Part shown: in pieces, positions 1,584 through 23,958 of the stretch
Numbering within the stretch: the first letter of the stretch is position 1
Layout: every line of letters starts with the position of its first letter
DNA from: Clostridiales bacterium
GTDB lineage: Bacteria; Bacillota; Clostridia; Lachnospirales; Lachnospiraceae
NCBI GenBank assembly: GCA_012520645.1
Contig: JAAYNV010000028.1
Span: 1 to 64,000 of the forward strand
DNA length: 64,000 nt
Direction of reading: 5' to 3'
Notes under the pieces: model-generated
The model's database searches: none
The model's input: the letters and a program-made list of their open reading frames with translations, nothing else
What the model was told of the DNA's origin: nothing
Position numbers and translations under genes: made by a program

Positions 1584-2564
1584 TTAAATCTGCTTTATCT
1601 TATCCAGTTCCCAATACCATGAGTTATTGATTTTTCTTGCTCTAATGCCCAGCTCCTTTTTGGCATTTTCCAATGTTCTTTTAGAAATTCCCTGTTCCTC
1701 AGCCATATCAAAAATCTCATTACTCTGTACCGCATTAGCAGTCTCTGCCAGTTCCCGAAGCATCTGCTTTGCCTGCTCCAATTTATTTGCTTTTGGGGCA
1801 ATACCGCCAAGCACTTCATCTGCTGTAATCTCATAATCTCCCAGCCACTTAAAACCACTTTCCATCAGTTCAAATGCCTTGGGATGTCCGAACTGTGCCA
1901 AATTATTTTTTATCTGAACAACTGCTCTGATATTGGGTTCTCCTTCCACTCTGCCGACTAGCAACACGCTCCTTGCTACTGCAAAGAAATCAATGGAACC
2001 CATGCCCCTATAAGCCGCCTTATTGCCGGATGCCTTATTCATATGACCGATAAGAATAATGGCACATTTATATTTCTCTGCCAAAGCTCCTAAACGCTTC
2101 GTCATATCCCTTGCTTCATTTGCTCTGTTCATATCCATGCCACCACCCAAGTAAGCCTGTATCGGGTCTAAAATTAACATCCTCGCTCCGGTCTGTATAA
2201 TAGCTTCTTCCAGCCTTTCATCTGCCATAGAAAGAGACTTGTCGCTTTCATCAATTACCACTATCCGCTCACAATCTGCACCTGCCTTTTCAAGCCTTGG
2301 CTTTACAGTATCTGCAAGCCCGTCCTCGGCAGTCTGATAAATAATGTTCATTGGTTCCGTCAGTTTCATATCATTATCCAGCCCCTCTCCTTTGGATAAC
2401 TTGGCTGCAATATTTAATATCAAGGTTGTCTTTCCGTCTCCCGGATCACCTTGTACGATTGTCAGCTTTCCATAAGGGATGAATGGATACCAAAGCCACT
2501 CAATCTCCTGCGACTGTACTTCTGACATGTTAATCATTTTCAGTTCTGTTCTCTTTTCTTCCAT
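1584..2564 (-). CDS. RepA-like AAA family ATPase (AAA_25/RecA-like)
   Basis: Walker A GDPGDGKTT, Walker B-like MLILDPIQAYLGG, position within the element. Confidence 0.85.
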   Translation of the reverse strand: MEEKRTELKMINMSEVQSQEIEWLWYPFIPYGKLTIVQGDPGDGKTTLILNIAAKLSKGEGLDNDMKLTEPMNIIYQTAEDGLADTVKPRLEKAGADCERIVVIDESDKSLSMADERLEEAIIQTGARMLILDPIQAYLGGGMDMNRANEARDMTKRLGALAEKYKCAIILIGHMNKASGNKAAYRGMGSIDFFAVARSVLLVGRVEGEPNIRAVVQIKNNLAQFGHPKAFELMESGFKWLGDYEITADEVLGGIAPKANKLEQAKQMLRELAETANAVQSNEIFDMAEEQGISKRTLENAKKELGIRARKINNSWYWELDKIKQI

Positions 2565-2604
2565 AAAGTCCTCCGTTTCCTAAAATCTCATTGTCACACA
2601 GAAG

Positions 2605-2681
2605 AACCTCTGTTATACTTATGCTGTGATTACATATCTTATTGAACATTAGTAGTTCAATAAGCATGGGTAACAGAGGTT
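2605..2681. repeat. Nested inverted repeats between integrase and ATPase genes
   Basis: Outer AACCTCTGTTA (2605-2615)/TAACAGAGGTT (2671-2681); inner CTTATTGAAC (2638-2647)-ATTAGTA-GTTCAATAAG (2655-2664), both perfect. Confidence 0.8.
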
Positions 2682-2699
2682 TTCCTGTTATCACAAGTC

Positions 2700-3731
2700 C
2701 TAGCAGTTGCCGCTGTTAGGGCTTTTTTCTTTTTCAAAATCCAGCATATCCGCTACTTTTCTTTGTTGATTCGGATATAAGTGTCCGTAAGTATTTAATG
2801 TGATACGGATATCCTTGTGTCCTACCCTCTCCTTTATCAGAATAGGCTCAATTCCTTTATTGATTAAGTACGCCACATGAGAATGTCTCAAATCGTGAAC
2901 TCTGATTTTCTTTACTCCTGCTTTCTCCATTTGGTGTTTCATTTTGTGTTGCACTGCTTCCTGCACAATGGGGAAGAGTCTTTCATTCTCCGGCATCCCA
3001 TAATGACCATCTATAAAATCCTTAATCTCCTGTTTGAGAAACTCCGGTATTTCTATCAGTCTTACAGATTGCTTCGTCTTAGGTTCCGTAATCACATCCT
3101 GCCTTTCTGTCCGGTAGTAAGTCTTGGTAATGCTGATTTGATTTCTCTCAAAATCGATGTCCTTTGGTGTAAGTGCCAACAACTCTCCAATTCTACATCC
3201 CGTCCAAAAGAGTATTTCAAAGATAAGATAGTATCTGCTTCCCGGCTCCATCGTTTGTATGAACTTTTGGTACTCATCCACTGTCCAGAAGTCCAAACTT
3301 CTGTTATCCGAACTTCCCATACGCTTTACTTTTTTACAAGGATTTGTGTGTAAATCGTAAATTCGTGAAGCATGAGTGAAAAGACTGGTTAGCTGATTTT
3401 GTATCATTCTTAAGTAGGCTTCCGAAAATCCTTTCGTCTGCATTTCATTCTGCCACTGGATAATCTGCCCGGCAGTTATCTCACTCATCATCTGATTACC
3501 GAAGTATGGAATGATGTGTTGCTCCATCATATACCGCTTGTTCTTCATGGTACGTTCCTTCAACTCATTCTGCTTATCTTCAAAATAAACTTCCATAAAT
3601 TCACTTAGCTTCATATCCATACTTCTGCTGTTATTCAATTTCTTCTGTCGTTCATACTCAAGAGCTTCACACTTTTTTCTCAAAACCTCTTTTTCTTCGC
3701 TTTTTCTTTTCGCCCTTGGCATTTGTTTCAA
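2700..3731 (-). CDS. Tyrosine recombinase / phage-type integrase
   Basis: Catalytic pattern ...TGCRIGELLAL..., HDLRHSHVAYLI, ...GHKDIRITLNTYGHL; N-terminal SAM-like core-binding domain. Confidence 0.95.
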   Translation of the reverse strand: MKQMPRAKRKSEEKEVLRKKCEALEYERQKKLNNSRSMDMKLSEFMEVYFEDKQNELKERTMKNKRYMMEQHIIPYFGNQMMSEITAGQIIQWQNEMQTKGFSEAYLRMIQNQLTSLFTHASRIYDLHTNPCKKVKRMGSSDNRSLDFWTVDEYQKFIQTMEPGSRYYLIFEILFWTGCRIGELLALTPKDIDFERNQISITKTYYRTERQDVITEPKTKQSVRLIEIPEFLKQEIKDFIDGHYGMPENERLFPIVQEAVQHKMKHQMEKAGVKKIRVHDLRHSHVAYLINKGIEPILIKERVGHKDIRITLNTYGHLYPNQQRKVADMLDFEKEKSPNSGNC

Positions 3732-3793
3732 ACCATTGGGCTGTCCATTTCTTTGTGTCTTTCTCCTTATACGCCATAATGACCTTCCTTTCC

Positions 3794-3988
3794 TTAATTT
3801 GCTACCAATTCATAGCCAAACATCTTAGTTGCCCAGAACACTCTTGGAATTCGCCCAGGCATTGTCACATAGCCCTGACTATCCAATTCCTTGTTCATCG
3901 ACTTAATAAGCTTGTATGCGTGAGATTTGGAACAATTCAGTTCTTTTGCAACATCTTCCGCACTCATCATATATTGATAATTCGCCAT
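3794..3988 (-). CDS. Excisionase-like / HTH DNA-binding protein
   Basis: 64 aa, MSAEDVAKELNCSKSHAYKLIKSMNKEL helix-turn-helix; immediately upstream of integrase. Confidence 0.7.
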   Translation of the reverse strand: MANYQYMMSAEDVAKELNCSKSHAYKLIKSMNKELDSQGYVTMPGRIPRVFWATKMFGYELVAN

Positions 3989-4040
3989 TTATTCGTCCTC
4001 CCTTCTTCATTTCTAATTTCCTTACATCTCTTGTATTTTG

Positions 4041-4205
4041 TTCGTGTACGAATTTCGTAAACTTATATTAGCACCATATCTTCCCTTTGTCAACACTTCG
4101 TAAAATTATTTTTACGGTTTTCGTAAATAGTATTTTTTGTAATTTCCTCTTTTATGTTTTTCGTAAATATGCTATTATGGATATTGTAATTATGTTTTTC
4201 GTATT
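4041..4205. promoter_or_regulatory. Cluster of TTCGTAAA direct repeats, candidate operator array for the XRE regulator
   Basis: TTCGTAAA at 4054-4061, 4097-4104, 4120-4127, 4160-4167, TTCGTATT at 4198-4205, plus perfect palindrome TTCGTGTACGAA at 4041-4052, in the divergent xis/XRE intergenic region. Confidence 0.6.
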
Positions 4206-4235
4206 TTTTCTATGTATGAATATAGGAGGTTGCTC

Positions 4236-4718
4236 ATGGGCGATGGAAAGAAATTAAAAGAACACATTGATAACAAAGGTACCAATGTGCGTAAGATTGC
4301 TAAAGAAACCGGCATCAGTGCCACTACTCTTTATACTATTATTCAAAAGGATACCAACATCAGATTTGACTTTGCTCTCCGTCTGGCAAATGCCTTGGAG
4401 ATTGATGTAAATGAAATATGCTCCGCAAGTCCTTTCTCCGGAGCCATTACAGAAGAAGAAATCTACCCTACCCTTCCGGATGGTTTGAATGGTGCATTGG
4501 ATTCAAGCAGAATAAAAACATACTTAAAATATTCCCTCTATCCTCTCATGCACCTATTTGGTAAAAACAGTATGCCGGATGTGGACAATCTGCTTACATC
4601 CTTTTATCAGTTGGATGATGAAGCCCGGAAAGAGGTTGTGGAAACGATACAATTTAAGCTGCAGTATCATAAGGATGCGGAAAGAGCAGAACAGGTAAAA
4701 CAGATTAAGGGATGGTAA
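4236..4718 (+). CDS. XRE-family transcriptional regulator
   Basis: HTH KKLKEHIDNKGTNVRKIAKETGISATTLYTIIQKDTN; ATG 4236 preceded by AGGAGG (4224-4229). Confidence 0.85.
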   Translation: MGDGKKLKEHIDNKGTNVRKIAKETGISATTLYTIIQKDTNIRFDFALRLANALEIDVNEICSASPFSGAITEEEIYPTLPDGLNGALDSSRIKTYLKYSLYPLMHLFGKNSMPDVDNLLTSFYQLDDEARKEVVETIQFKLQYHKDAERAEQVKQIKGW

Positions 4719-4782: not shown

Positions 4783-5454
4783 TTATGTATTAGTTTCTTG
4801 GCTAATATGTTCTAGCTCATTAACTTTAGCCTCAAGTTCTTTTATTTTAGTCTCTAATTCTATTAATTGTTGCTCCTGCTCACTATTTTTAGCTTCTAAT
4901 TGTTCTTTATCCGAAATACTTGTTCGCAATTCGTATAAAAAACTCGGAAAATATTTATTCAAAACCAATTCTTCAATGGCTTTATATTCAGATGAATTAA
5001 TATCAAATCTTCCATCCTTCTGATGATATAATATGCGATTTATACTCACAGTACGAATATCATTAAGCTTCATCACCGAATCATGCTGTATGAACGAATA
5101 ATCTGCTTTCTTTAACAAATATAAATCACTTTTACTTGTATTATTATCAACTGGATGATAAACATCAGGATGTTTTTGCGGATCATACGAAAATATAGGT
5201 AGTACATATAAAAGTTTCTTATTGACGCCAATTACTAACCCTCTATGTTCGTATGACATCTCTGGAACAAAGTTTTTTCCAAACTCAAACTGATATATTT
5301 CACCCTTTTTTATTTTACGCGTCTGAAAACTCTTTCTTTTATTATCTGCCCATCTATAATCTGACTTTGAAAATCTATCAATCTCATCATTTCCTAGTGT
5401 TCCATTTAAAATTAAATCATTCGTTTTGGTGATATTTCTTATGTATTCTCTCAC
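4783..5454 (-). CDS. PemK/MazF-fold endoribonuclease-like toxin with C-terminal coiled coil
   Basis: KKGEIYQFEFGKNFVPEMSYEHRGLVIGVNKKLLYVLPI and HDSVMKLNDIRTVSINRIL resemble the MazF/PemK core (KGDI..., S..DQIRTID..RL); GTG start with GGAGG 7 nt upstream; C-terminal ELETKIKELEAKVNELEH heptads. Confidence 0.55.
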   Translation of the reverse strand: MREYIRNITKTNDLILNGTLGNDEIDRFSKSDYRWADNKRKSFQTRKIKKGEIYQFEFGKNFVPEMSYEHRGLVIGVNKKLLYVLPIFSYDPQKHPDVYHPVDNNTSKSDLYLLKKADYSFIQHDSVMKLNDIRTVSINRILYHQKDGRFDINSSEYKAIEELVLNKYFPSFLYELRTSISDKEQLEAKNSEQEQQLIELETKIKELEAKVNELEHISQETNT

Positions 5455-5481: not shown

Positions 5482-5627
5482 AAAAAAGGGTATAGACTTA
5501 GCTATACCCTACTCTGAAATTCAGAGCGACCTCGTCGGTCAAATTAATCCTTTCATGTCATGGCTTTGTCAGCCAAAAATTTAAGCAGTATAACTGCGAA
5601 AATTCATTAATATTATTTGTTTCTCTG
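5482..5627 (-). ncRNA. Putative structured ncRNA with own promoter and terminator
   Basis: Minus strand: TTGAAA (5656-5661)-17 nt-TATAAT (5633-5638), then hairpins GCAGT-3-ACTGC, TGGCT-5-AGCCA, GACC-5-GGTC, CTCTG-5-CAGAG and terminator GGGTATAG-6-CTATACCC-TTTTTT (5509-5482); no convincing ORF inside. Confidence 0.7.
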
Positions 5628-5759
5628 CTTAGATTATACCATACTGCACATTGGTTTTCAATATTTTATCTAACAGAATGTGCTTATTGTATCAAAGATA
5701 CTTTCTGATGTCAATCTCTTTAATAAACATTTTATGTTTCAATTCTACAATGGTGCATA

Positions 5760-6422
5760 TCATAGTATTGCCTCTCCGCATATATCAAAAATTGACATCT
5801 GACCATCTGACTTTTTTTCCGACATATACTTCCATATGGTTTTGTCTAACACGCTTTCACCCACTTCTAACACAGAAGCCGTCTTGCGCAATATTTTGCT
5901 CGCCTCCTTATAATCGGCTGTCAAAACACCTGCTATTTCAAGAAATTGGAACATGTGTCTATCAATAGGAATTGCTTGCTGACCAGATAACAGTTTCATA
6001 TAGTCAATAGTTTTTCTACCCACTCCATTAATTTCTAGTAAACTCTCAGCATTCCTGTCATCCAAAATCCACTCTGCCAAATCGTCCTCTGTATTTATAT
6101 TACAATTATATAAATACCATGCCAAATCACAGATTGTATCTTGCTTTCTTTTATTTTTCCATTGTATTATTTCTTCAATTGGTATTGTTTGAAATAGTAT
6201 TATAAAATCGCAGGTTGTTCTATAATCCGAATATCTGCTTAAAATATTATAAACTCTTGGATACACCACACTTTTATAATTCATTCCTGCTTGTAATACT
6301 GAATCCGTCAAAGTTGCTGCCATATTATAATATGGCGTTCTTTGTGTGATTTCAGCATAATTGTGAGGAATTTTTTCTAAAAGGTCTATAACCTTTTGAA
6401 CTGAGTTATCTATATTATCCAT
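5760..6422 (-). CDS. HhH-GPD (OGG/EndoIII-like) DNA glycosylase homolog
   Basis: LLEINGVGRKTIDYMKLLSGQQAIPIDRHMFQFLEIAGV: helix-hairpin-helix with Lys and the catalytic Asp of the PxDxH motif retained. Confidence 0.8.
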   Translation of the reverse strand: MDNIDNSVQKVIDLLEKIPHNYAEITQRTPYYNMAATLTDSVLQAGMNYKSVVYPRVYNILSRYSDYRTTCDFIILFQTIPIEEIIQWKNKRKQDTICDLAWYLYNCNINTEDDLAEWILDDRNAESLLEINGVGRKTIDYMKLLSGQQAIPIDRHMFQFLEIAGVLTADYKEASKILRKTASVLEVGESVLDKTIWKYMSEKKSDGQMSIFDICGEAIL

Positions 6423-7059
6423 TAATCTTTTCCTCTAGTATATTATTTATCGCATTTATGCGGTCAACACAATTAGGACACGCTCCACATGGCATATCTG
6501 CATTTACCTGACACGAATATGTCATCTCAATAGGCGCCATTAATTCTAATCCTAATTTTGCCACCTCTGTTTTTGTCATTTCACGAAAAGGCATATTAAT
6601 CCTAATAGAACCATACTCATATAACAAACTTTCTAGCTTTGTAAAAAACTCCATTGAACAATCTATTTCTTTTGCATGATTACTATTAATAAACGCTGTA
6701 TATACATCTTTAATACCCATAGATTGCGCATACGCCGATGCCAATGATATGAACAAAATATTTCTATACGGCAGATACATATCCGCAGCTTCAACATTGT
6801 CTTCCCACAAATTCGCTTCTATTATCATTCTCGAGTTGGATTCCTTGTAAACATCACCAATTTTAATGATACGTACATTATCTACATATTTTGCAGGAAG
6901 TACTTGCAAAAGTGTTTGATATTCCTTGTCCTTACAATGCTGACCGTAATCAATAAATAAAATTACAACATTCTTATTTTCTTTAGCAAGCTTATATGCC
7001 AATACGGTAGAATCCATTCCACCGGAGGCAAGCAAAAGACAATCAAAATTATTCTCCAT
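6415..7059 (-). CDS. QueC-like PP-loop ATPase (7-cyano-7-deazaguanine synthase family)
   Basis: LLLASGGMDSTVLAYKLAKE PP-loop, YLPYRNILFISLASAYA, C-terminal zinc motif YSCQVNADMPCGACPNCVDR. Confidence 0.88.
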   Translation of the reverse strand: MENNFDCLLLASGGMDSTVLAYKLAKENKNVVILFIDYGQHCKDKEYQTLLQVLPAKYVDNVRIIKIGDVYKESNSRMIIEANLWEDNVEAADMYLPYRNILFISLASAYAQSMGIKDVYTAFINSNHAKEIDCSMEFFTKLESLLYEYGSIRINMPFREMTKTEVAKLGLELMAPIEMTYSCQVNADMPCGACPNCVDRINAINNILEEKING

Positions 7060-8392
7060 TTTTCACCATCCTACTAATCGCAGTAAATACTGCATCAATT
7101 ACTTGACTCTTCGTCTTGCAATAATATGTACATGAGTTTTTTAAAAACATATTATCTAGCTTCAGATACGGATCATAAAGTATTATTGGCTTTCCACTTG
7201 CTTGATAATTTCCAATTTCTACCAACGTTCCTTGGTCATTGTAGAGTAATGTTGCTATCATTATTTTGCATTCCGATAACAAGTCCATATCCTTAGCAAA
7301 TATAGCACGCTCTTCACTCATATCCATATCCTTATTCACTTGTCCATTTTCTTGGATTGGTCTCCGAGGTTTAAAATTATGATACAAAAGAGAAGCCTCT
7401 AAAATATCCAATTTCTCTGTATCTACATAATCAAAATCCGGAGCTGCCATATAAATTGGATAGTTTACTCTTACGTTCCATGGAACTCTTATTCCCTCCA
7501 TTTCAACGAAATCATAAATATTCTGAATAATGAGTTCTACATTTTCTTTGAATTTTTCTTGTTGAATTGTTTGTGCATATAAACTTGACATCCACGCTGC
7601 AAATGCCATATTATCTGAAATATTAGTTCCAACCCTTTCAGACATAAATGCTATATCATATACATCTCCTACTCCCACAGAATGAATAGTTTCTCCGATA
7701 TGAGCAGGTGCCTCATAACTTGTTTTTTCCCTAAAATCATAAAGCCATGAACCACCTCTATTTTCCTTTATTAATAACTGAGCGACACTCTTTTTTCCAA
7801 AATATGTTATTAAATTATCATAACTATTTTCTTTAAAAAACTCTTCAAATGAGGTCGATGACGTCGATAAGAATACTGTCTGAATTTTTATTGTATCTAA
7901 ATCTAAAATATCATCACAGTCATAATTCATATCTATATGAATTTTACCTTCATAGTCCGAAAGGTCACTTAAAATTCTTGCATTCCCATATCTTCCCGGA
8001 AAAATAATTATATCTGTCGGTTTGAAATTATCTAATACCTGCATTAACGGCAACATGCTAACATATTCTGCTTGCCTACCTAATATGTTCTCATATAGCT
8101 GATTACCACTCTCATCCGACTGACCAATTAACATTACGTTTGGTGCCTTATCCACCTTACCTAAGCGAAAGACACTATTTGCTCTTAACACATCAACCCC
8201 AAATTTTTCAACATCTTTTACAAGATAATCTGGTGCATAATATGCCAATGCATATTCTATATTCAGTGCATCACAACTTCTTGCAGCATGAAAAATCCCA
8301 CCAAGTCTTGACGTACTATATCCATTCTCTATAATATCAAGATGCTGGTCTACATATACCTCTCCAATTATCAATATTTTTCTATTATGCAT
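7049..8392 (-). CDS. PfkB-family sugar/nucleoside kinase fused to nucleoside 2-deoxyribosyltransferase-like domain
   Basis: N-term IIGEVYVDQHLDIIENGYSTSRLGGIFHAA... and HSVGVGDVYDIAF (PfkB GxGD); C-term YMAAPDFDYVDTEKLDILEASLL...ERAIFAKDMDLLSECKIMIATLLYNDQGTLVEIGNYQASGKPIILY (NDT-like). Confidence 0.75.
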   Translation of the reverse strand: MHNRKILIIGEVYVDQHLDIIENGYSTSRLGGIFHAARSCDALNIEYALAYYAPDYLVKDVEKFGVDVLRANSVFRLGKVDKAPNVMLIGQSDESGNQLYENILGRQAEYVSMLPLMQVLDNFKPTDIIIFPGRYGNARILSDLSDYEGKIHIDMNYDCDDILDLDTIKIQTVFLSTSSTSFEEFFKENSYDNLITYFGKKSVAQLLIKENRGGSWLYDFREKTSYEAPAHIGETIHSVGVGDVYDIAFMSERVGTNISDNMAFAAWMSSLYAQTIQQEKFKENVELIIQNIYDFVEMEGIRVPWNVRVNYPIYMAAPDFDYVDTEKLDILEASLLYHNFKPRRPIQENGQVNKDMDMSEERAIFAKDMDLLSECKIMIATLLYNDQGTLVEIGNYQASGKPIILYDPYLKLDNMFLKNSCTYYCKTKSQVIDAVFTAISRMVKNGE

Positions 8393-8762
8393 ACAAATTT
8401 ACCACGATAAAAGGAACAGGTGATAGTCCAGACGACTTAATTGCTCCTGAATATCTTTTTCCCTTTTTTATACACAAATTCAAATAGTTATAAGATACTG
8501 GCAGATTTCCAATAACCTCTTGAGTACTGGACAAAACAACAGCCAGTCGCTTGTTAATTAACTGCATTGATAATTCAACTGATTGTCCAGTGGAAGGCAC
8601 ATCTTTATGATTCTGAAAATATTCTGATATAGCCACATCCTCCAATAGAATATTTTCAATAGCTAATGGACATTCATCGCCTCCATTATTTCCTCCATTA
8701 GCAATTGAACCAGCTCCACCACCACGATATGTTCCAAACATTCCATTACCAGAAGACCCCAT
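8385..8762 (-). CDS. Small protein with Gly-rich N-terminal tail (MGSSGNG...) and compact C-terminal domain
   Basis: ATG 8760-8762 with GGAGG RBS; overlaps downstream gene by 8 nt; first gene of the operon. Confidence 0.75.
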   Translation of the reverse strand: MGSSGNGMFGTYRGGGAGSIANGGNNGGDECPLAIENILLEDVAISEYFQNHKDVPSTGQSVELSMQLINKRLAVVLSSTQEVIGNLPVSYNYLNLCIKKGKRYSGAIKSSGLSPVPFIVVNLYA

Positions 8763-23686: not shown

Positions 23687-23767
23687 TTTTTTACCTCCTT
23701 ATAGATTTTGTCCGGCATACGCCGGTATTGCCGATCAGGAGTTTTATGAATTCTTCAAAATAAGAAC

Positions 23768-23920
23768 CAAAAACCTCCCCGTCTTCAGGCATTGCCAAAA
23801 GACAGGGAGGTAAAAATCATTGCAAAAACTCTTTTCTCCTCGGCAGGCGTTTTCTTCTTACGCATCAGTTCCCAATAGGAAAACCTCTGCACCTGCTGTC
23901 TTCGGCATGGTTCTAAAACC
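23768..23920 (-). ncRNA. L10 leader (ribosomal protein leader) with attenuator hairpin
   Basis: Minus: CCATGCCGAAGACAGCAGGTGC...CGCCTGCCGAGGAGAAAAGAG followed by terminator ACCTCCCTGTCTT...AAGACGGGGAGGTTTTTGG upstream of rplJ. Confidence 0.9.
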
Positions 23921-23958
23921 TTGAATAGAATAGCATAGCTCTATTAATCTGTCAAGCG

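Follow-up and report, generated by a model that had tools for sequence, protein, structure and literature searches.

Organization of the locus

The window, that is, the whole stretch of 64,000 nucleotides analysed here from a Clostridiales bacterium of the Lachnospiraceae, carries on its minus strand a promoter, a predicted RNA with a row of five hairpins and a gene for a MazF-like protein, which starts 27 nt past the T run of the RNA. The individual features are as follows.

5633-5661, minus strand: promoter of the RNA, with TTGAAA (5661-5656), 17 nt and TATAAT (5638-5633)
5482-5626, minus strand: predicted RNA of about 145 nt, its 5' end deduced from the -10 box, its 3' end being the T run
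5550-5602, minus strand: closing helix P1, UUUUC (5602-5598) with GAAAG (5554-5550), enclosing hairpins A and B
5585-5597, minus strand: hairpin A, GCAG UUAUA CUGC
5561-5575, minus strand: hairpin B, UGGCU GACAA AGCCA, with a boxB-like GANRA pentaloop, first repeat
5528-5540, minus strand: hairpin C, GACC GACGA GGUC, second repeat
5512-5526, minus strand: hairpin D, CUCUGA AUU UCAGAG
5482-5510, minus strand: hairpin E, the intrinsic terminator (stem-loop 5510-5487), AGGGUAUAG CUAAGU CUAUACCCU, then a U run
4783-5454, minus strand: MazF-like toxin gene, 223 aa, GTG start with GGAGG in front

The succession of promoter, five hairpins and terminator that had been predicted from the sequence is present in full between 5661 and 5482, and the RNA folds with -44.4 kcal/mol, compared with -27.1 ± 3.3 kcal/mol in 200 shuffles (z = -5.3). 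The terminator is also borne out by counts, as terminator-like sites exceed chance in this stretch (2 found, 0.1 expected). The promoter sequence is there as claimed, but in such AT-rich DNA its consensus alone does not exceed chance (4 sites found against 2.9 expected); in 48 of 58 related loci the best promoter-like match 5' of the RNA contains a perfect TATAAT. A second promoter-like site, TTGACA-17-TACAAT, is found at 5714-5686. Across the loci, the gap from the end of the RNA to the start codon of the toxin mostly measures 11-62 nt, and therefore a separate toxin promoter lacks room in most of them.

Structure and covariation of the RNA

The consensus structure begins with the closing helix around the variable hairpin A and hairpin B, followed by hairpin C, hairpin D and the terminator. 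This fold is supported by covariation, which had been named as the check for a structured RNA. In an alignment made by MAFFT from sequence alone, without structure, double changes occur in 28 of 39 pairs, as compared with 14.3 ± 2.2 in shuffles, and 106 cells are double-changed, as compared with 27.8 ± 4.8; neither value was reached in any of 500 shuffles. In the same alignment 89.2% of the cells pair, against 83.3% in shuffles and at most 49% in slid structures, a percentage that leans toward one member (L026) because the reference structure was taken from it. Hairpins B to E are paired in 94-100% of the cells (B 97.8%, C 100%, D 94.5% and the terminator hairpin E 99.3%), with double changes in 4 of 5 pairs of B, 3 of 4 of C and 5 of 6 of D. 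The closing helix and hairpin A reach 72-84%: hairpin A, which is variable in sequence, is paired in 72% of the cells, and P1 is weaker and absent from some homologs (74-84%). A further alignment (A4), which was fitted to the covariance model and is not independent of it, contains more covariation still.

An alternative fold or pseudoknot was rejected, since a covariation scan gave no further helix, with the reservation that a tertiary fold devoid of covariation would escape such a scan. No Rfam family scored above its gathering score (the best in the stretch was MIR2617, E 2.1), so that a known Rfam family, which would have spoken against a new RNA, was discarded as well. A small peptide encoded in the RNA was likewise rejected, as stop-free stretches do not exceed 19-42 aa and the spacing between loci shows indels of 1-2 nt. 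The covariance model built for the RNA (R1) matches the window at 5482-5606 with 93.4 bits.

The core of the RNA consists of the two GANRA pentaloop hairpins B and C, which lie 28-37 nt, mostly 32 nt, apart and share the loop GA(C/U/A)(G/A)A. Among the 39 loci with an intact toxin this loop is found in hairpin C in all cases and in hairpin B in 38; the remaining locus, L033, has no hairpin B. Compared across the homologs, both hairpins clearly appear to be copies of one unit. The original prediction had seen no tandem repeats, which is correct for the plain sequence of the window copy, but in structural terms nearly all loci have the hairpin twice, at a spacing of about 32 nt (once in L033), although the repeated part comprises a core of only about 15 nt.

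The loop of P22 boxB is GACAA, GANRA pentaloops can adopt a GNRA-like form with one base out, and boxB-like loops are the binding sites of phage N peptides (PMC12550061, PMC11480772). Like phage boxB, the hairpins described here have a GANRA pentaloop on a short stem, and hairpin B of the window combines the P22 loop with the U-A pair that closes it in P22. Unlike boxB, they occur as two copies beside a toxin gene and no N protein is seen; the likeness is one of loop sequence. A boxA-like element, TGCTCTTTAACA, beside these hairpins matches at 11 of 12 positions in L019 and L078, but was rejected as a common feature, since 6-8 positions mismatch in the clade of the window (L006) and across most of the divergent clade.

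Association of the RNA with the toxin gene

A protein scan of 85,462 species genomes yielded 52 toxin loci with 43-95% identity over the matched stretch, mostly in Lachnospiraceae and a few in other Clostridia; Oribacterium sp. KHPX15 and Kineothrix sp. MSJ-39 are examples of carriers in culture. According to the covariance model R1, the RNA lies upstream of the toxin gene in 50 of the 51 loci that possess upstream sequence, so that the predicted link between RNA and MazF-like gene is strongly supported by comparison. The sole exception, L008, has unrelated DNA upstream and a stop at toxin codon 2, and is possibly an assembly fault because it lies on a short contig. Genome sets of the family, class and order, which overlap partly with the 52 loci, agree with this picture. 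Among 397 family genomes a strong toxin match was obtained in 10 and a strong RNA match in 16, and the RNA adjoins the toxin in all 10; 392 class genomes gave one further strong toxin match, again with the RNA adjacent, and in the order-level genomes one other family has the RNA, next to what may be the remnant of a toxin. An intact toxin of this branch without the RNA was found neither in the 52 loci nor in the family and class genomes. The distances between the RNAs correlate with those between the toxins (Mantel r 0.83). A phage, plasmid or viral-contig origin was rejected, as the protein had no match in viral contigs, phages or plasmids.

The toxin-like protein

The protein of 223 aa is predicted to consist of N-terminal helices, a MazF core and a C-terminal coiled coil. 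Of 38 relatives, 23 show a weak match to PemK_toxin, at best with E 0.0014; the window protein itself scores 16.7 bits, below the cut-off of 23.1; profile-profile alignment to MazF is also weak and covers a short motif only, which is why the assignment of the MazF fold rests on a predicted model. This AlphaFold model has a mean pLDDT of 82, and the top 50 Foldseek hits are all MazF (probability 1.00, best E 7.5e-5, TM 0.72 by target). The fold is thus predicted to be MazF/ToxN-like, as in type III toxins. Among the relatives R71 is invariant and S89 nearly so; from the motif alignment we take these residues to stand at the positions of the catalytic Arg and Thr of MazF. The window protein gave no match to families of the ToxN, CptN or TenpN type in Pfam and NCBIfam scans, and no type III toxin was among its PDB sequence matches.

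Three divergent MazF-like proteins of the same build (L067, L068, L069) occur without this RNA, two of them, L068 and L069, set among phage-like genes. PHROG 1412, annotated as "antitoxin mazE-like", matches the toxin family and likewise lacks this RNA. The link to the RNA is therefore characteristic of a single branch within a wider family.

Loss of the toxin and retention of the RNA

In about a third of the loci that bear the RNA the toxin is broken or deleted while the RNA is retained. Of the RNA-bearing loci in alignment A4, the toxin is intact in 39 and broken or missing in 17; two loci cut by contig ends were excluded from these counts, in which a few genomes possibly appear twice. L039 carries a nonsense codon; in L072, 12 N-terminal residues are fused to a coiled-coil stretch and the whole MazF core is deleted. 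Several orphan RNAs are intact after toxin loss (L072 with 131 bits, L095 with 122 and L078 with 112), and others are decaying (L084, L097). Point mutations in the RNA loops are confined to loci with a broken toxin (3 of 17, compared with 0 of 39 with an intact toxin; Fisher test, p 0.025). Toxins lost with the RNA kept, and no intact toxin found without the RNA, make up the pattern expected of a toxin and its antitoxin, though the orphans also decay. That the RNA outlasts the toxin could reflect slow decay, and faulty assembly of metagenome bins may account for some of the toxin frameshifts. The frameshifts of L041, L047 and L053 lie together at the A/G homopolymer of the KKGE codons (toxin codons 48-51), an indel hot spot that may reflect phase variation or assembly error.

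Proposed function and alternatives

The RNA and the toxin gene are probably a toxin-antitoxin pair of a new kind, controlled by RNA, and we regard it as fairly likely that they constitute a two-part module that works like a type III system. One promoter would give rise to an abundant RNA of about 145 nt ending at the terminator, and a minor fraction of read-through past the terminator would allow synthesis of the toxin. The latter is predicted to be an endoribonuclease of MazF fold that carries a coiled coil in addition. The row of hairpins would hold the toxin inactive via the two boxB-like GANRA hairpins, which are likely its contact points, and the toxin would be freed when the RNA is lost, through phage infection or together with the locus. 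The comparisons show that the RNA is conserved with a covarying fold, sits beside this gene ahead of a terminator and is often kept where the toxin is lost, and that the protein has a MazF-like predicted fold. That the protein is toxic and cleaves RNA, that the RNA binds it directly and inhibits it, that transcription reads through into its gene, and that the pair acts against phage or as an addiction module are the parts of this proposal that we infer. The original prediction had drawn the comparison with type III loci from the architecture, which the homologous loci strongly support, and it erred at the level of structure in taking repeats to be absent.

The main rival to direct inhibition is that the RNA acts in cis, as a leader at the 5' end of the toxin gene: a protein, which might be the toxin, would bind the boxB-like hairpins and thereby set how often polymerase passes the terminator, and the free RNA would have no role. 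The RNA is always found in cis, on the same strand and ended by a terminator before the gene, a layout that ribosomal protein leaders have too, and conserved hairpins beside a terminator would suit attenuation. Against this stand the orphan RNAs that are intact after toxin loss (L072, L095, L078), the intact RNA of L036, where the toxin lies 325 nt away, and a covariation scan that gave no alternative anti-terminator helix, so that we consider a leader unlikely.

The pairing of a predicted nuclease with a structured RNA is so tight that the RNA, instead of inhibiting the nuclease, might also be a cofactor that it needs or, given that phage N peptides bind boxB-like loops, a decoy sensing a phage factor. 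A toxin dependent on the RNA would be harmless alone, so that intact toxins without RNA should be tolerated, but none is seen, and we think that such an activator or sensor is quite improbable. A still more doubtful idea is that the boxB-like hairpins 5' of the terminator serve to trap phage antitermination proteins and so trigger abortive infection: once bound to the hairpins, an N-like phage protein would either carry polymerase past the terminator and on into the toxin gene, or detach the RNA from the toxin.

An antisense RNA that blocks translation of the toxin, as in type I systems, is suggested by the likeness, in some loci, of the RNA arm UUCUUUC to the complement of UUGAAAGAA at the start of the toxin. 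This arm covaries within the RNA, and pairing with the own translation start region, to which this comparison is confined, is no better (-16.3 kcal/mol) than with those of other loci (-16.5) or shuffles (-16.2); antisense control was therefore rejected as very improbable.

Relation to known systems

The type III systems ToxIN, CptIN and TenpIN consist of a promoter, a structured repeat RNA, an intrinsic terminator and a gene for a MazF-fold nuclease, with RNA and toxin evolving together (PMC5086642). The module described here has the same order, including the intrinsic (Rho-independent) terminator between RNA and toxin gene, and its RNA and toxin, too, evolve together. It differs in its toxin, which falls outside the ToxN, CptN and TenpN families, is nearer to true MazF and carries a coiled coil, and in its RNA, which has two GANRA-loop hairpin repeats instead of pseudoknot repeats and no Rfam match. 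In toxin family and RNA form the module thus lies outside these systems, and its short hairpin repeats correspond only in part to their tandem arrays.

AbiF-AbiFr also combines a toxin with a structured ncRNA upstream and has Clostridia among its hosts (PMC12373285, PMC12737573), but AbiF is a HEPN protein, and the window RNA matches no Rfam family, abiF included if it is in Rfam. With the type II systems MazEF and PemIK the toxin shares the MazF fold and motif (HDSVLKLNDIRT against RDSVILLEQLRT); here, however, there is no MazE-like or other conserved protein partner, and N-terminal helices and a coiled coil are added. The candidates of Fremin and Bhatt are structured RNAs 5' of toxin genes in Clostridiales as well, but were reported beside ToxN, in a main text that does not mention PemK or MazF (PMC8040213). 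A literature search, whose coverage excluded most subscription journals and supplementary tables, found no published description of this RNA-toxin module.

If the proposed toxin-antitoxin module is real, it would bring one more MazF-fold family, with members scattered across gut Lachnospiraceae, to the toxin-antitoxin systems under RNA control, and its MazF-type nuclease would be held by an RNA of new fold rather than by a protein antitoxin. A covariance model for the RNA now exists, and the module raises the question whether the GANRA hairpins are the sites of toxin binding.

Genomic neighbourhood

When the neighbouring proteins of 46 loci were all compared with one another, none proved to be conserved beside the RNA-toxin pair; the only groupings were an antisense artefact and a loose group of two-component proteins whose positions vary. 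A protein antitoxin or conserved third gene was rejected because no protein gene is common to the loci, and a defence-island or mobile-element context because such surroundings are scattered and have no common partner.

In the window the pair is adjoined by the following operon, which is also carried by L007 and appears to be related to defence systems built on QueC (type IV CBASS, Qat).

5760-8762, minus strand: four genes, for a protein of 125 aa with MGSSGNG at its start, a protein of 447 aa that combines a nucleoside deoxyribosyltransferase domain with a PfkB-like N-terminal part, a QueC-like protein of 214 aa and an HhH/OGG-like protein of 220 aa

This adjacency had prompted the suggestion that the RNA serves the QueC operon, which is not supported and has next to no probability, as the operon genes occur at L007 alone among 52 homologous loci. 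L005 has the integrase and XRE gene in common with the window and lacks QueC, and the RNA-toxin pair therefore behaves as a unit of its own.

The pair is also adjoined at 1584-4718 by genes for an integrase, an AAA_25 protein and an XRE regulator, common to L007 and partly to L005, which suggests an integrative element near tuf/fusA. In L048 a drum RNA (RF02958, 68 bits; 629-739) lies immediately 5' of the RNA-toxin unit, and elsewhere in the window, at 23759-23923 on the minus strand, there is an ordinary ribosomal protein L10 leader (RF00557).
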